DNA of 64,000 nucleotides. It comes from Bartonella krasnovii. GTDB taxonomy: Bacteria; Pseudomonadota; Alphaproteobacteria; Rhizobiales; Rhizobiaceae. The stretch spans positions 868,001 to 932,000 of the forward strand of contig NZ_CP031844.2 of assembly GCF_003606345.3 (NCBI RefSeq), written 5' to 3'. Each line of letters starts with the position of its first letter. Positions within the stretch are counted from its first letter, which is position 1. Positions 9,630 through 14,140 of the stretch are shown here, one piece after another. The notes under the pieces are model-generated. The model was not told where the DNA came from and did not search any database. It saw only the letters and a program-made list of their open reading frames with translations. The position numbers were made by a program, and so were the translations under genes.

Positions 9630-11210
9630 ATGGTAAAACTGGTTGATCAATGGGGTAGGGCGCTTCATATCAAAGGATTGGAGCGGGAGGTGGCAAGCCC
9701 AAGCATTGGTGGTGTTCGTGATGTGTGGTCACAAACCATTGTCAGTGGTCTCACCCCTCTTCAACTTGCTGATATTTTGCAACAGGCAGCAAGGGGGGCG
9801 CCTGAACAATTTTTCCAACTTGCTGATGATATGGAAGAGCGTGATTTGCATTATCGTGCGGTGCTGGGCATGCGTAAAAATGCCCTCACAGGGGTGGAGC
9901 CTGGGGTGATTGCGGCAAGCAACAGTGCACAGGATAAAAGAATAGCCGATGCGGTGCGTGAAGTGATTAGTGCACCTACCTTTGTTGATGATTATGTGAC
10001 GGATTTGTTAGATGCTTTGGGAAAAGGCTATGCGGTTGTTGAAACCTTGTGGGACAAGAGTGCTAAGGAATGGTGGCCGGTTGCTTGGAAATGGCGTGAC
10101 CAGCGGTTTTTTCAATTGGATCGGCGAGATGGCTTTCATTTGCGTTTAAAAGAAGAGGGGTCTTTGTACGGAACAGAGTTGCCTGCTTATAAATTTTCCA
10201 TTCACAGACCCAAGTTGAAAAGTGGCTTACCAATCCGCTCTGGGCTTGCCAGACTTGCGGCTTGGGCATTTTTGTTTAAGTCTTATACCTTAAAAGATTG
10301 GATGGCTTTCTTAGAAGTTTACGGCATGCCTTTGCGTGTGGGCAAATATGGTGCAAGCTCTTCTCAAGCAGAGCGGCGGGTTCTTATTCAAGCGGTGCGT
10401 GATTTATCCAGTGATGCGGCGGCAATTATTCCCAAAGAGATGGAGATTGAGTTTATTGAGGCAGCTGGGGGCAGTGGCAATGCGGTTTTTGCCGCAAAGG
10501 CGGAATATTTAGATCGACAGATCTCTAAAGGGGTATTGGGGCAAACGATGACGACGGATGATGGGTCGTCTTTTTCGCAAGCGCGCATTCATGAAAATGT
10601 GCGCCATGATATTGCCAGAGCTGATGCACGGCAATTGGCTTTGACAGCTAATCGTGATTTGATTGTGCCTTTTGTTGAGATTAATTTTGGGCGCCAAGAG
10701 CGCTACCCCCTTGTTTATTGGCCGATTTCGGAAAATGAAGATATTAAAGCCATTAGCGATGCTTTAGAAAAACTTGTGCCTCTAGGATTGCGTGTTGGGG
10801 CGCAAGAAGTGCGTAATAAGATTGGCTTTTCGCAACCAACAAAAGAAGAGGATGTTTTAAGGGCTCCGGATAATGCGCCTGATGATGCGGGGCAACAAAA
10901 AGCTCATGTTTGTGCTGATTGTGGGGGTGCTTTTGATGTTTCTGTGACAAGAGAGGGTAAGAGTGGAAAAGAGCAGGGTGGAAAACATCACGACGAATTG
11001 GACCGACTTTCTGAAGAGGCTTTAAGTGACTGGGAAGAGGATTTAGAGCCCCTTTTAGAGCCTTTTAAAAAGCTTGTGAGAGAGGCTAAAAGTTATGAGG
11101 ATATCCTTAAAGGCTTGGATGAATTATTAGGCGAGATGGATCATCATGCCTTGGCAGCACGCTTGGCAAAGGTGCAAATGATTGCGCGGGGACTGGGGTA
11201 TCATGGATGA
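9630..11210 (+). CDS. DUF935 portal protein (Mu gp29-like)
   Basis: This 526-residue protein is of the DUF935 family, the portal of Mu-like phages, which forms the dodecameric ring through which DNA enters and leaves the head. Recognisable parts are the N-terminal LADILQQAARGAPEQFFQLA, the segment DLHYRAVLGMRKNAL, and DWMAFLEVYGMPLRVGKY in the core. The C-terminal acidic part after residue 440 is more variable and contains HVCADCGGAF, a possible cysteine pair. It overlaps the next gene by 8 nt and lies directly after the terminase, the normal order. Confidence 0.92.
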   Translation: MVKLVDQWGRALHIKGLEREVASPSIGGVRDVWSQTIVSGLTPLQLADILQQAARGAPEQFFQLADDMEERDLHYRAVLGMRKNALTGVEPGVIAASNSAQDKRIADAVREVISAPTFVDDYVTDLLDALGKGYAVVETLWDKSAKEWWPVAWKWRDQRFFQLDRRDGFHLRLKEEGSLYGTELPAYKFSIHRPKLKSGLPIRSGLARLAAWAFLFKSYTLKDWMAFLEVYGMPLRVGKYGASSSQAERRVLIQAVRDLSSDAAAIIPKEMEIEFIEAAGGSGNAVFAAKAEYLDRQISKGVLGQTMTTDDGSSFSQARIHENVRHDIARADARQLALTANRDLIVPFVEINFGRQERYPLVYWPISENEDIKAISDALEKLVPLGLRVGAQEVRNKIGFSQPTKEEDVLRAPDNAPDDAGQQKAHVCADCGGAFDVSVTREGKSGKEQGGKHHDELDRLSEEALSDWEEDLEPLLEPFKKLVREAKSYEDILKGLDELLGEMDHHALAARLAKVQMIARGLGYHG

Positions 11211-12408
11211 GGAACTTTTTAAAACAGCACCCAAAGAGGTCACCCGTTATTTTGCAGCCAAAAATATTGTTCCAAGCTTTGATTGGCGGGATATAGCACC
11301 AGAAGAGCATGCCTTTTCCTTTACGGTGGCAAAATCGGTAGGTTATGACATTTTGGATGATTTTAAAACAGCGGTTGGAGATGCCATAAAGCATCAAGTT
11401 CCTTTTCAAGAATTTCAAAAAAATTTGATGCCGATTTTACAGGAAAAGGGCTGGTGGGGAAAAAAGACCAGCATTGATCCGAAAACGGGTGAAAAGAGTG
11501 TGGTACAGTTGGGCAGCCCGCGGCGTTTAGAAACGGTCTATTGGGCTAATACCATGAGTGCCCATGCAGCAGGTGAATGGGAACGCACGCAAGAGAATAA
11601 AGAGTTTTTACCTTATCTCACCTATGCGTTGTCGAGTTCAGAACATAAGCGTTTAGAACATGAAAGTTGGGTGGGGTTTACCGCACCGGTTGATGATCCC
11701 ATTTGGGATTGGCTTTATCCCCCCAATGGCTGGCGATGTAAATGCAGTGTGCGGCAGGTAAGCCGTTATGAGGCAGATAATTTAGGCTATGAAGAGGGTG
11801 CAGCGCCACCCCATGTGGAGGAGCGGGCTTGGCGCAATAAGCGGACGGGGCGTGTTGAAAAAATACCCGTAGGCATTGATCCTGGATGGCATTCTAACCC
11901 CGGGAAACATCGCGCGCAAAATTTAAGCAATTTTTTAAGTGATAAAGTTTCCCTAATGGGGGATAATCGCAAACGCATTGCTATTGAAGATATTGTGGGC
12001 TCACCACTTTTGGAAGCGATGTTTGAAGGACATATGCCGCGTGGATTTATTCCCATAGCCCCGATGATAGAAAAGGTGCGTGATGTTTTTGGTGGGGACA
12101 ATTCTCTTATTCGTTTATCTTCAGACAGTGTGAAACATATTTTGTTAGAGCATCAAGCACGTGCTCTTCACTTGGAGGATTTTCGGGGTGCCATTCAAAC
12201 CTTCATAAAACCTTACGGTATCATCAGGCGAAAAGGTGTACCGAGCGTTTTGTTTTTTGGGGAAAGTGGTGGGGCATGGTGGCGCTTAGCGGTTAAATTT
12301 GTGGCAAGCAAACAAGAATGGTGGCTGACTTCTATGCATAAAAAGAGCTTTCGCGAAATTCAACGTTTGTTAGAGGCAGCTGAAAAGAAGGATGAACGGT
12401 TGTTGTAA
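11203..12408 (+). CDS. Mu gpF-like minor head protein with C-terminal nuclease-like extension
   Basis: This 401-residue protein has the minor-head domain of Mu gpF/gp30 and SPP1 gp7 (residues 1-240), including WDWLYPPNGWRCKCSVRQV, a signature near the end of that domain. The last 140 residues form a separate module (LSSDSVKHILLEHQ, then WWRLAVKFV and TSMHKKSFREIQRLL). This resembles the phage barnase/EndoU/colicin/RelE-like nuclease (PBECR) domains known to be fused to such proteins. ATG 11203 overlaps the portal stop; an upstream TTG at 11182 is less likely. The extension is assigned by its pattern only. Confidence 0.82.
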   Translation: MDEELFKTAPKEVTRYFAAKNIVPSFDWRDIAPEEHAFSFTVAKSVGYDILDDFKTAVGDAIKHQVPFQEFQKNLMPILQEKGWWGKKTSIDPKTGEKSVVQLGSPRRLETVYWANTMSAHAAGEWERTQENKEFLPYLTYALSSSEHKRLEHESWVGFTAPVDDPIWDWLYPPNGWRCKCSVRQVSRYEADNLGYEEGAAPPHVEERAWRNKRTGRVEKIPVGIDPGWHSNPGKHRAQNLSNFLSDKVSLMGDNRKRIAIEDIVGSPLLEAMFEGHMPRGFIPIAPMIEKVRDVFGGDNSLIRLSSDSVKHILLEHQARALHLEDFRGAIQTFIKPYGIIRRKGVPSVLFFGESGGAWWRLAVKFVASKQEWWLTSMHKKSFREIQRLLEAAEKKDERLL

Positions 12409-12620
12409 AGAGAATACCGCAAAGCTCTGTTGGTGTTTGTGAAAAGAAGCGGTGTGAGGGGAAACATGAGAAGGCGTGGAGGGCGGTCAACTCCTCGCAG
12501 ATCCGGCAAAGCCGTCCTGGTATAACTGGCTCACGCCTCGCGGGTAATCTAACAGTTTAAACGTTCAAAAGCAATCTTTAAAAAAATGGCTTGAGAGAGG
12601 CTTTTTCATATAAGATGATA
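12409..12620 (+). ncRNA. Candidate structured RNA element, copy 1
   Basis: No gene lies here. The core (about 12457-12520) can form nested stems: outer GGCGTG with CACGCC, GGGCGG with CCGTCC, a tight CGGC-AAA-GCCG hairpin, and GGAG with CTCC in a loop, some mutually exclusive or pseudoknotted. A second copy follows directly. The core is nearly unchanged between copies while the flanks have diverged. The 5' flank ACCGC...GCGGT pairs here, and the homologous flank in copy 2 keeps ACCG...CGGT. A T-rich end follows. No known RNA family was recognised; the + strand is assumed from the neighbouring genes. Confidence 0.5.
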
Positions 12621-12836
12621 AAGAGAATACCGTAAAGCTCTGTTAGCTTTGCAAAGAAGGAACCGGTGTGTGGGGAAACATGAGAAGGCGTGGAGGGCGG
12701 TCAACTCCTCGCAGATCCGGCAAAGCCGTCCTGGCAAAACTGGCTCACGCCTCGTGAGTACGCTAACAGTTTAAACATTCAAAAGCAATCTTTTAAAAAA
12801 AACGCGCTTTGAGAGAGGTTTTTTGTGTGGAGTGAT
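12621..12836 (+). ncRNA. Candidate structured RNA element, copy 2
   Basis: This is the tandem partner of the element at 12409. Its core (about 12672-12734) is identical to copy 1 over some 60 bases. Loop regions differ: the sequence after AAAGCTCTGTT changes to AGCTTT, which creates an alternative AAAGC/GCTTT stem, and the 3' part becomes CTCACG-CCT-CGTGAG, a perfect hairpin. Base changes that keep pairing suggest RNA function rather than protein coding. Only very short open frames cross it. Confidence 0.5.
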
Positions 12837-12997
12837 AATTTGTACCTCTAACTTCACAATGGCGCTCTATCGCCTTTGAAGTGCCTTTGAAAACGATTTT
12901 ATGAGAGGGTTTGGTATTGGGGTTTCTCTTACAGGCTATAAGAGGGAAAAAAAGTGCTTTTAAAGTGCTTTTTTAAATTTTTTGAAGAAGTGCTCTT
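12837..12997 (+). other. Intergenic stretch before the head operon
   Basis: The sequence is AT-rich with several A and T tracts and a repeated AAAGTGCTTTT motif near 12950-12975 that may help end upstream transcription. I see no open frame with a ribosome binding site. It ends at the second copy of the late-promoter element. Confidence 0.4.
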
Positions 12998-13025
12998 TTG
13001 ACTGACAGTGTCAGGCTTATGAGTT
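12998..13025 (+). promoter_or_regulatory. Candidate Mor-dependent late promoter, copy 2 (head/tail operon)
   Basis: The palindrome CTGACA-G-TGTCAG (13002-13014), preceded by TTGA and followed by GCTTATGAG, matches the elements at 5271 and 24748. It lies 68 bases before the protease/scaffold gene that opens the head and baseplate operon. The conserved TTAT 2 bases after the palindrome is a plausible -10 core. Confidence 0.7.
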
Positions 13026-13081
13026 GAAGGGGATTTCGTGCATTGTATTGCCAATGATAATTGTAAAGCAATAGGCAATGT

Positions 13082-14140
13082 ATGGAGCAAGAATTTTACG
13101 AAGATCAAAAAGAAGGGCATGCTGAGATATGTCATGACGAGACATTTCATGCCGCGTTCATAGATCTTTGCCCAGACGTTTTATGCCAAGACATCACCGT
13201 TAGCCAAGCACCGGAATGGGTCGAGCTGTTGCCCAAAGCGCCAAATGTGAAGGCGCGTGATGGACGGGAATGGCATTATGACCCACAAAGGATTTTAAAG
13301 GCTTTTGCAGCCAATAAAGGACCGCTTGTGATTGATTATGAGCATGGGCAACATCACAGAGCGAGGAACGGCTTGGAAGCACCTGCCAGCGGTTGGATTG
13401 AAGAACTCGCAGAGCGGGATGGTGCGATTTGGGGTCGGGTTAAATGGACCGATATGGCAGCTAAAAAGATTGTGGCTCGGGAATATCGCTATCTTTCCCC
13501 TGAGTTTCGTCATTCTAAAAATGGTGAGATTTTAAGTTTGGCAGGGGCAGGGCTGGTGAACCGTCCTGCCCTTGTGATGACGGCTTTAAGCCGTGAACAC
13601 TCTTCAACACCCCCTTTAACGCCTCTTGTGGTGTCCCCAACAACTTTGACGGAGAAAATGATGGATTTAACAGCCATTGCCAGTGCTTTGGAGCTGGCAG
13701 AAGATGCAAAACCTGCAGAAATTTTAGCAAGCATTGCAACACGCGAAAAAGAACGGGTGGAATTAAATGCCCAATTAACAAAAGCGCGAGAAGATCTAGC
13801 GCTTTTGCGCGAAGAGCAAAAAAAGGCGACGATTGAGAGTCTTTTAGACAAAGCGATTGAAGAGGGCAAGATTTTGCCGGCTACGCGTGAAGACTATCGT
13901 GCCCTTTGTACCCTTGAAGGGGGCATGGAACATTTTCAAACTTTGGTTGAGAAATTGCCCGTTCTCGCATCGACAAGCCCTTTAGAAACATGTGCCTTGG
14001 TGCAAGAACATCAGCTTGCGCCAGAAGATATTGCACTTGCTGCACGCCATTATCAACAAGAGCAGAAGCAAAAAGGCTTCGACATCACCATTAGCCAAGC
14101 AGTTGATTATATTTATGAGCAAAAGGAGCGCCAATCATGA
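13082..14140 (+). CDS. Head maturation protease and scaffold (Mu gpI/Z-like)
   Basis: This 352-residue protein combines an N-terminal Mu I-type protease (about residues 40-170, with VIDYEHGQH and EYRYLSPEFRHS) and a C-terminal scaffold rich in Glu, Lys and Ala coiled coil (about 210-265). In Mu the protease processes the head, and the scaffold is also made separately from an internal start. The same is likely here: ATG 13658 has GGAG upstream and would give a 160-residue scaffold. ATGA joins it to the decoration gene. A Mor-type site precedes the gene. Confidence 0.88.
   Translation: MEQEFYEDQKEGHAEICHDETFHAAFIDLCPDVLCQDITVSQAPEWVELLPKAPNVKARDGREWHYDPQRILKAFAANKGPLVIDYEHGQHHRARNGLEAPASGWIEELAERDGAIWGRVKWTDMAAKKIVAREYRYLSPEFRHSKNGEILSLAGAGLVNRPALVMTALSREHSSTPPLTPLVVSPTTLTEKMMDLTAIASALELAEDAKPAEILASIATREKERVELNAQLTKAREDLALLREEQKKATIESLLDKAIEEGKILPATREDYRALCTLEGGMEHFQTLVEKLPVLASTSPLETCALVQEHQLAPEDIALAARHYQQEQKQKGFDITISQAVDYIYEQKERQS
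13658..14140 (+). CDS. Putative internally initiated scaffold protein (Z-like)
   Basis: An in-frame ATGATG (13658 and 13661) inside the protease gene follows GGAGAAA, a usable ribosome binding site. Translation from it would give about 160 residues (MMDLTAIASALELAEDAKPA onward), covering exactly the coiled-coil scaffold part without the protease. The Mu I/Z and lambda C/Nu3 pairs use the same layout. The site is visible; its use is inferred. Confidence 0.5.
   Translation: MMDLTAIASALELAEDAKPAEILASIATREKERVELNAQLTKAREDLALLREEQKKATIESLLDKAIEEGKILPATREDYRALCTLEGGMEHFQTLVEKLPVLASTSPLETCALVQEHQLAPEDIALAARHYQQEQKQKGFDITISQAVDYIYEQKERQS

Follow-up and report, generated by a model that had tools for sequence, protein, structure and literature searches.

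What is the repeated, gene-free sequence that separates two head genes of a Mu-like prophage in Bartonella krasnovii? The prophage fills the left part of the window (the whole stretch of 64,000 nucleotides analysed here). Its genes run in the order transposase and transposition protein, late activator, endolysin, terminase, portal, F, gap, I protease, cement, capsid, gp36 and tail S. F and I are separated by 673 nt with no listed ORF of at least 80 aa, and two shorter minus-strand ORFs (52 and 73 aa) extend into this gap (Table 1). The direct copies within it match over 144 nt at 92% identity (12443-12586 against 12657-12800) with a spacing of 214 nt, and the whole units, about 214 nt each, agree in 192 of 221 aligned columns (87%). 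Their longest unbroken identity is 63 nt. An earlier sequence-only reading, which had described a gene-free gap of about 670 bases with two tandem copies and an identical core of some 60 bases, was therefore accurate on all three points. We propose that each copy would be a minus-strand gene for a small non-coding RNA with its own promoter, acting as a trans-acting regulator; as a whole, we give this reading a probability of roughly 60%.

A BLAST search for relatives of the element matched 13 of 61 genomes (the window's own among them), all from the genus Bartonella, with two of the 13 (G034 and G035) based on only about 20 nt. Several Bartonella genomes hold two or three copies in tandem, and tandem copies occur elsewhere too. 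A diverged core was found in Ochrobactrum phage POA1180, in the same gap between F and the protease gene. The plasmids searched held no copy, and a protease-based scan of viral contigs returned no relative. Model R1, built from 11 rows, was run on 160 loci found via alignment of F proteins (80 from viral contigs, the best of at least 546, and 80 from genome contigs, the best of 225), and its matches lay repeatedly directly behind F. With model R2, 46 of the best 80 viral F loci (46 matches) and 51 of the best 80 genome F loci (66 matches at E <=0.005; 69 at E 1) carried the RNA; some loci are cut by contig ends, so these fractions are lower bounds, and many of the scored loci also served as seed. 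Bartonella accounts for 20 of the 51 positive genome loci, out of 22 from that genus (L211 and L213 being negative), and the other 31 come from 58 further loci.

Strand and position were nearly constant among these matches. All R2 matches run opposite to F (46/46 viral, 69/69 genome). Distances from the F stop codon were listed for 65 non-Bartonella loci, two of which (L142 and L236) have no usable F end; in 59 of the other 63, P1, the helix closing the ends of the element, lies -18 to +12 nt from the stop codon, and the median over all 63 is 1 nt. The remaining four lie at 22, 62, 445 and 452 nt, the two largest distances belonging to L133 and L126. Named hosts include Nitratireductor, Stappia, Mesorhizobium, Bosea, Chelatococcus, Methylocystis, Methylosinus, Rhodobium, Loktanella, Maritimibacter, Gemmobacter, Fuscovulum and Robiginitomaculum, together with one odd host, a Phycisphaerae MAG (L228), whose copy may reflect a binning error. 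When R2 was run over whole genomes (E 0.01), it matched, counting the window's genome, 20 of 61 in the genus, 4 of 385 in the class (G786 borderline) and 2 of 299 in the phylum; R1 matched 24 of 397 genomes of the order with E no higher than 0.5, mostly weakly. The match L284 is weak (E 0.0096), and three matches were judged false: L280 inside an ORF, L279 at the edge of two ORFs, and L192 inside its F gene and not matched by R2. A contig from another genome of the genus (L201) encodes an F protein 89% identical to that of the window. Two Bartonella genomes, G036 and G1060, gave 12 and 10 R2 matches, consistent with several near-identical Mu-like prophages per genome.

The relatives found via the F gene share a core of 57-87 nt that forms a three-way junction. 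P1 (7 bp) is followed by a single strand (J1/3), a variable hairpin P3, and P2 directly beside P1. J1/3 reads AGCCA in 30 of 45 rows and AGnnA in 41 of 45, and the P2 loop is mostly UnnCG (TGACG in 15 of the 45 rows, variants otherwise). The CGGC-AAA-GCCG hairpin recognised earlier in the window is present and corresponds to P3. Covariation was strong in a first set of 54 matches in an alignment fitted to model R1. Because that alignment was model-fitted, 45 elements were realigned on the minus strand with MAFFT alone (alignment A8), leaving out near-duplicates (five Bartonella copies, L116 and L119), L094, and L192, an R1 match that was excluded here only and is still among the 54 rows. In A8, P1, P2 and P3 pair in 96.4% of 719 cells against 74.8% after shuffling, and the covariation score is 0.631 against 0.204, with none of 500 shuffles reaching either value. 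Double changes occur in 14 of 16 pairs, and slid-partner controls gave 38.5-54.7%. RNAalifold predicted P1, P2 and P3 from A8 with the fold not supplied; on the plus strand, MAFFT and RNAalifold applied to 34 elements recovered P1 and P2 together with two pairs of the P3 region. The elements were selected by a model carrying the same fold, which favours that fold, but individual pairs of P1 occur in as many as five pair types, so selection by the model alone is hardly the cause.

Covariation among homologues had been named beforehand as a refutation test for a structured, non-coding element, and the homologues do carry compensatory changes in a common fold. Judged from these alignments, the element is a real, covarying structured RNA. 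The same comparison indicates that the repeat is far beyond chance, because its core recurs at the same place in other genera with compensatory changes. The flanking stems proposed alongside it did not hold up: among 30 distinct Bartonella flanks, ACCGC/GCGGT or ACCG/CGGT, with G-U allowed, can form in 9 and CTCACG/CGTGAG in 5. A pseudoknot between the P2 loop and J1/3 was rejected as a helix (64.4% of cells pair, and 35 of 45 rows fail at one position); two nearly invariant positions of these segments may form a tertiary contact. A tRNA-like identity was also rejected, ARAGORN having found none in the window.

We next considered the strand. The sequence-only reading took its stems from the plus strand, but both the wobble pairs and the promoter speak for the minus strand, which runs opposite to the late genes and is probably the strand of the RNA. 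Non-Watson-Crick cells of A8 count 33 G·U against 4 A·C on the minus strand without the loop-closing pair of P2, and 35 against 13 with it; seen from the plus strand, this one pair is a G·U in 14 of 54 rows. Folding energy gives no clear preference for the minus strand: the MFE is lower there in five of nine pairs, and z-scores range from -0.49 to -2.14 on the minus and from -0.29 to -2.28 on the plus strand. Just outside P1, on the minus side, a sigma-70-like promoter reads into the element, placing the predicted 5' end at P1. For scoring, 70 of 115 R2 matches were taken (near-duplicates and most Bartonella copies out) and 69 were scored, L236 being too short. The mean best score, of a possible 12, was 8.1 on the minus strand, 6.16 on the plus strand, 6.3 in shuffled sequence and 5.68 in random stretches of the same loci. 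Scores of at least 8 occurred in 46 of the 69 elements, a spacer of 17 nt in 55, and a distance of 5-9 nt from the -10 to P1 in 58. The 25 elements outside the seed behaved alike, scoring 7.96 on the minus against 6.16 on the plus strand. In Bartonella, the -35-like TTGCTT is present in 35 of 35 copies, and in many of them the hexamer 17 nt behind it makes a poor -10. The window's own promoters are weak (with TAGCGT as the -10 of copy 2), and a stricter scan of 12300-13100 found no minus-strand promoter.

A scan for intrinsic terminators over the same interval also found none. The minus-strand sequence beyond P1 has almost no G but plenty of C and U, with at most 9% G at nucleotides 2-13 across 69 elements. 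This pyrimidine-rich tail also occurs in Bartonella, whose copies do not adjoin F codons. On the minus strand, the final 12 nt of F contain 10% G in 75 loci with the element against 22% in 51 without a match. From these sequence features we regard the assignment of gene, strand and promoter as very likely. One viral contig (L094, 6765-6838) has the fold with a promoter score of 5.0 and no promoter found; by eye, its element adjoins Mor-like and ParB-like ORFs, with the RNA in the same direction as both.

Table 1. Features of the F-I region, in window coordinates; RNA and promoter features are predicted.
Feature	Position	Strand	Basis or remark
Mu F-like head morphogenesis gene	11182..12408	+	Pfam PF04233, E 2.9e-11; stop codon is the conserved landmark
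Repeat unit 1 (core, promoter, flanks)	12406..12619		Self-comparison of window
Copy 1 pyrimidine-rich 3' tail, putative extent	12454..12471	-	Tail composition of 69 elements, Bartonella tails
Copy 1 RNA core, read 12538 to 12472	12472..12538	-	R2 match 12470-12540, 58.1 bits (window in model seed); A8; order P1 (12538-12532 with 12478-12472), J1/3, P3, P2
Copy 1 -10-like TAGATT, 7 nt before P1	12546..12551	-	Position as in relatives
Copy 1 -35-like TTGCTT, 17-nt spacer	12569..12574	-	TTGCTT in all 35 Bartonella copies compared
Repeat unit 2	12619..12836		Self-comparison of window
Copy 2 pyrimidine-rich 3' tail, putative extent	12668..12685	-	Tail composition
Copy 2 RNA core, read 12752 to 12686	12686..12752	-	R2 match 12684-12754, 58.1 bits (window in seed)
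Copy 2 -10-like TAGCGT, poor consensus match	12760..12765	-	
Copy 2 -35-like TTGCTT	12783..12788	-	
Mu I-like protease gene	13082..14140	+	Pfam PF10123, E 2e-49

The gap has other features as well. Weak A-rich/T-rich hairpins at 12580-12606 and 12798-12824 stand at the end of each unit, past the -35, and may terminate late transcripts; the terminator scan detects none. Upstream of I, an inverted repeat CTGACA-G-TGTCAG (13002-13014) is possibly a late promoter or operator, and by eye a similar one lies upstream of the protease gene in POA1180 (L031) and L059 and beside the element in L094. Tandem GCTTTnAAA-like repeats (12947-12973) also precede I and were seen by eye 5' of I in the Mu-like prophages L043, L045, L046, L047, L052 and L171. 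Extra genes lie between the RNA and I in L057 (707-1129) and behind the element in L120, L121 and L123; by eye they look nuclease-like or carry signal peptides, and the gap seems to be a site for accessory genes.

The element is also found without an adjoining F gene. A solo copy in L275 (6694-6770, 54.2 bits) sits among tRNA genes, between genes for a gyrase-B-type topoisomerase and a SpoU methylase, with the promoter TTGACA-N16-TATTTT. Another, L307 (35.9 bits), has recA on one side and an amidase gene on the other. The pair L304/L310 adjoins an ion-channel-like gene; its genome (G1079) has a further copy linked to F. At these loci no F was found in the fetched sequence of at least 1.5 kb on the F side (by tblastn for L304, L310 and L307), and such copies argue for a unit working on its own. 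In G058 (L303, 8641-9096), three divergent copies stand in tandem, flanked on the side away from the contig end by genes for valyl-tRNA synthetase and efflux; none of 14 phage proteins of the window was found at the locus, and the contig ends 226 nt past the last copy. L305 adjoins a helix-hairpin-helix gene (DnaE-like, by eye), with its contig ending 3 nt past the copy. Since the contigs end there, G058 and L305 are only possible cases of copies without F. Such copies are sporadic: of 60 genomes surveyed in the family, 5 gave any match at all. In addition, three Bartonella genomes, including the window's own, hold diverged solo copies in gene-poor stretches (60.2, 50.1 and 22.5 bits with R1; 23.8, 18.3 and no match with R2).

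We then compared the element with known systems. Prophages encode trans-acting sRNAs such as AsxR, AgvB, DicF and IsrK, which resemble it as small RNA genes with their own promoter that lie in a prophage and are expressed independently of the late genes, promoter and expression being predicted for our element. Unlike these, as described, it lies opposite head genes in Mu-like phages of Alphaproteobacteria and has a few chromosomal copies. OOP, which acts on lambda cII, and sar, which acts on P22 ant, are likewise short RNAs opposite phage genes and next to a gene end, whereas the element has a covarying three-way junction that is kept across genera, sometimes away from the complementary gene. 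The pRNA of phi29, which is required for DNA packaging, shares a three-way junction and a host-type promoter (predicted for our element) in a phage RNA. R2 matched none of eight head-gene stretches taken from further phage records (L107-L114, those stretches alone being searched), which include B23, MuM16-2, vB_RhkS_P1, JBD67, vB_ThpS-P1 and SuMu; six of the eight (L107, L108, L109, L111, L113 and L114) have the F/I arrangement annotated.

Multi-copy intergenic RNAs are also known from Bartonella itself. According to their abstract (PMC5387305), the Brt RNAs are 194-203 nt long, occur in this genus only and precede a helix-turn-helix gene. By comparison, our core is shorter (57-87 nt), its neighbours are the Mu F-like and I-like genes with no helix-turn-helix gene immediately downstream, and it is not genus-restricted, having matches in POA1180 and many genera. 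The accessible part of the POA1180 paper (PMC5492332) contains neither 'non-coding' nor 'intergenic'. In the titles and abstract openings of the open-licence literature, preprints being outside this scope, we found no description of this RNA and no non-coding RNA gene of Mu-like phages. The earlier failure to assign a known family was borne out: Rfam 15 gave no match in the whole window at gathering thresholds, nothing convincing over the element at relaxed E-values, and only five tRNAs across the loci of 17 relatives. The element thus belongs to a small-RNA family, apparently not described before, that is found in Mu-like prophages of Alphaproteobacteria and, in a few copies, at a distance from phage genes.

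In the reading we prefer, host RNA polymerase would transcribe the gene without the phage late activator, and the RNA would therefore already be made in the lysogen; a regulatory RNA made in the lysogen is, from these predictions, most likely. The transcript would start at P1 and end in or near the pyrimidine tail, and its gene would be an RNA 'moron', an additional gene inserted among the late genes under a promoter of its own. Of the roles suggested earlier, a processed regulatory RNA comes nearest, but the RNA looks like the product of its own promoter and not like a piece of late mRNA. It would act in trans, through base pairing of its C/U-rich tail or conserved single strands with purine-rich segments of target mRNAs that resemble Shine-Dalgarno sequences; candidate contact sites are the single strand behind P1, the P2 loop and the tail. 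The tail could instead favour Rho-dependent termination of the transcript. In 66 elements, pairing of the tail, J1/3 or P2 loop with the head region (up to about 8 kb) showed no excess over swapped RNAs, and the best pairing seeds in the window prophage and in POA1180 fall in different genes. Taken by itself, we put trans-acting regulation at slightly below even odds.

The main rival is a cis-antisense role on the late message, in which the RNA would pair over its full length with the F-I junction of late mRNA, leading to cleavage or to silent head genes in the lysogen. By location the RNA is fully complementary to late read-through mRNA, and the opposite strand, the median of 1 nt between P1 and the F stop codon and the head-region search that yielded no trans target would all suit such a role. 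Perfect pairing, however, needs neither a fold nor loop sequences kept across genera, and some copies have no adjoining F or lie 445-452 nt behind it; we consider this role unlikely. Less probable still is a plus-strand cis element in the late mRNA, either a 3' UTR structure that ends, protects or processes the transcript or something akin to a riboswitch or antiterminator. The complement folds equally well, the F stop codon closely precedes the element, and the loop-closing pair of P2 fits the plus strand in the rows noted above, but the wobbles outside that pair favour the minus strand by 33 to 4, the promoter points the other way, and some copies again have no adjoining F.

A packaging RNA had been suggested for this locus; one comparable to phi29 pRNA, serving as a scaffold on the portal, would suit the three-way junction, the host-type promoter of its own and the neighbouring portal and F genes. 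We hold it very improbable because the model has no match in the eight phage head-gene stretches, six with F/I annotated, and because copies adjoin ordinary chromosomal genes. The ribozyme role suggested with it found no support here. A conserved short plus-strand peptide (MRRRGGRSTPRRSGK...) was rejected and has a negligible chance of being correct: the window copies do have an in-frame ATG ahead of the core, but it is ACG or missing in other Bartonella copies, the loop of POA1180 is one base shorter and shifts the frame, and the changes track base pairing.

Prophage small RNAs are already a known kind; what is new here is the fold, the strand and the anchoring to the F stop codon. The trans-acting RNA we favour would extend, in a tentative proposal that we rate well short of even, to a portable regulatory module shared by Mu-like prophages and chromosomes of Alphaproteobacteria: an RNA moron, encoded on the opposite strand at a fixed place by the F stop codon and made in the lysogen, whose compact junction and C/U-rich tail may alter translation in the host or in rival phages. 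The family is defined by a strict syntenic anchor, the stop codon of Mu F, by strong covariation and by a predicted promoter of its own, in many alphaproteobacterial genera. Bacteria with several Mu-like prophages can hold many copies of the RNA.
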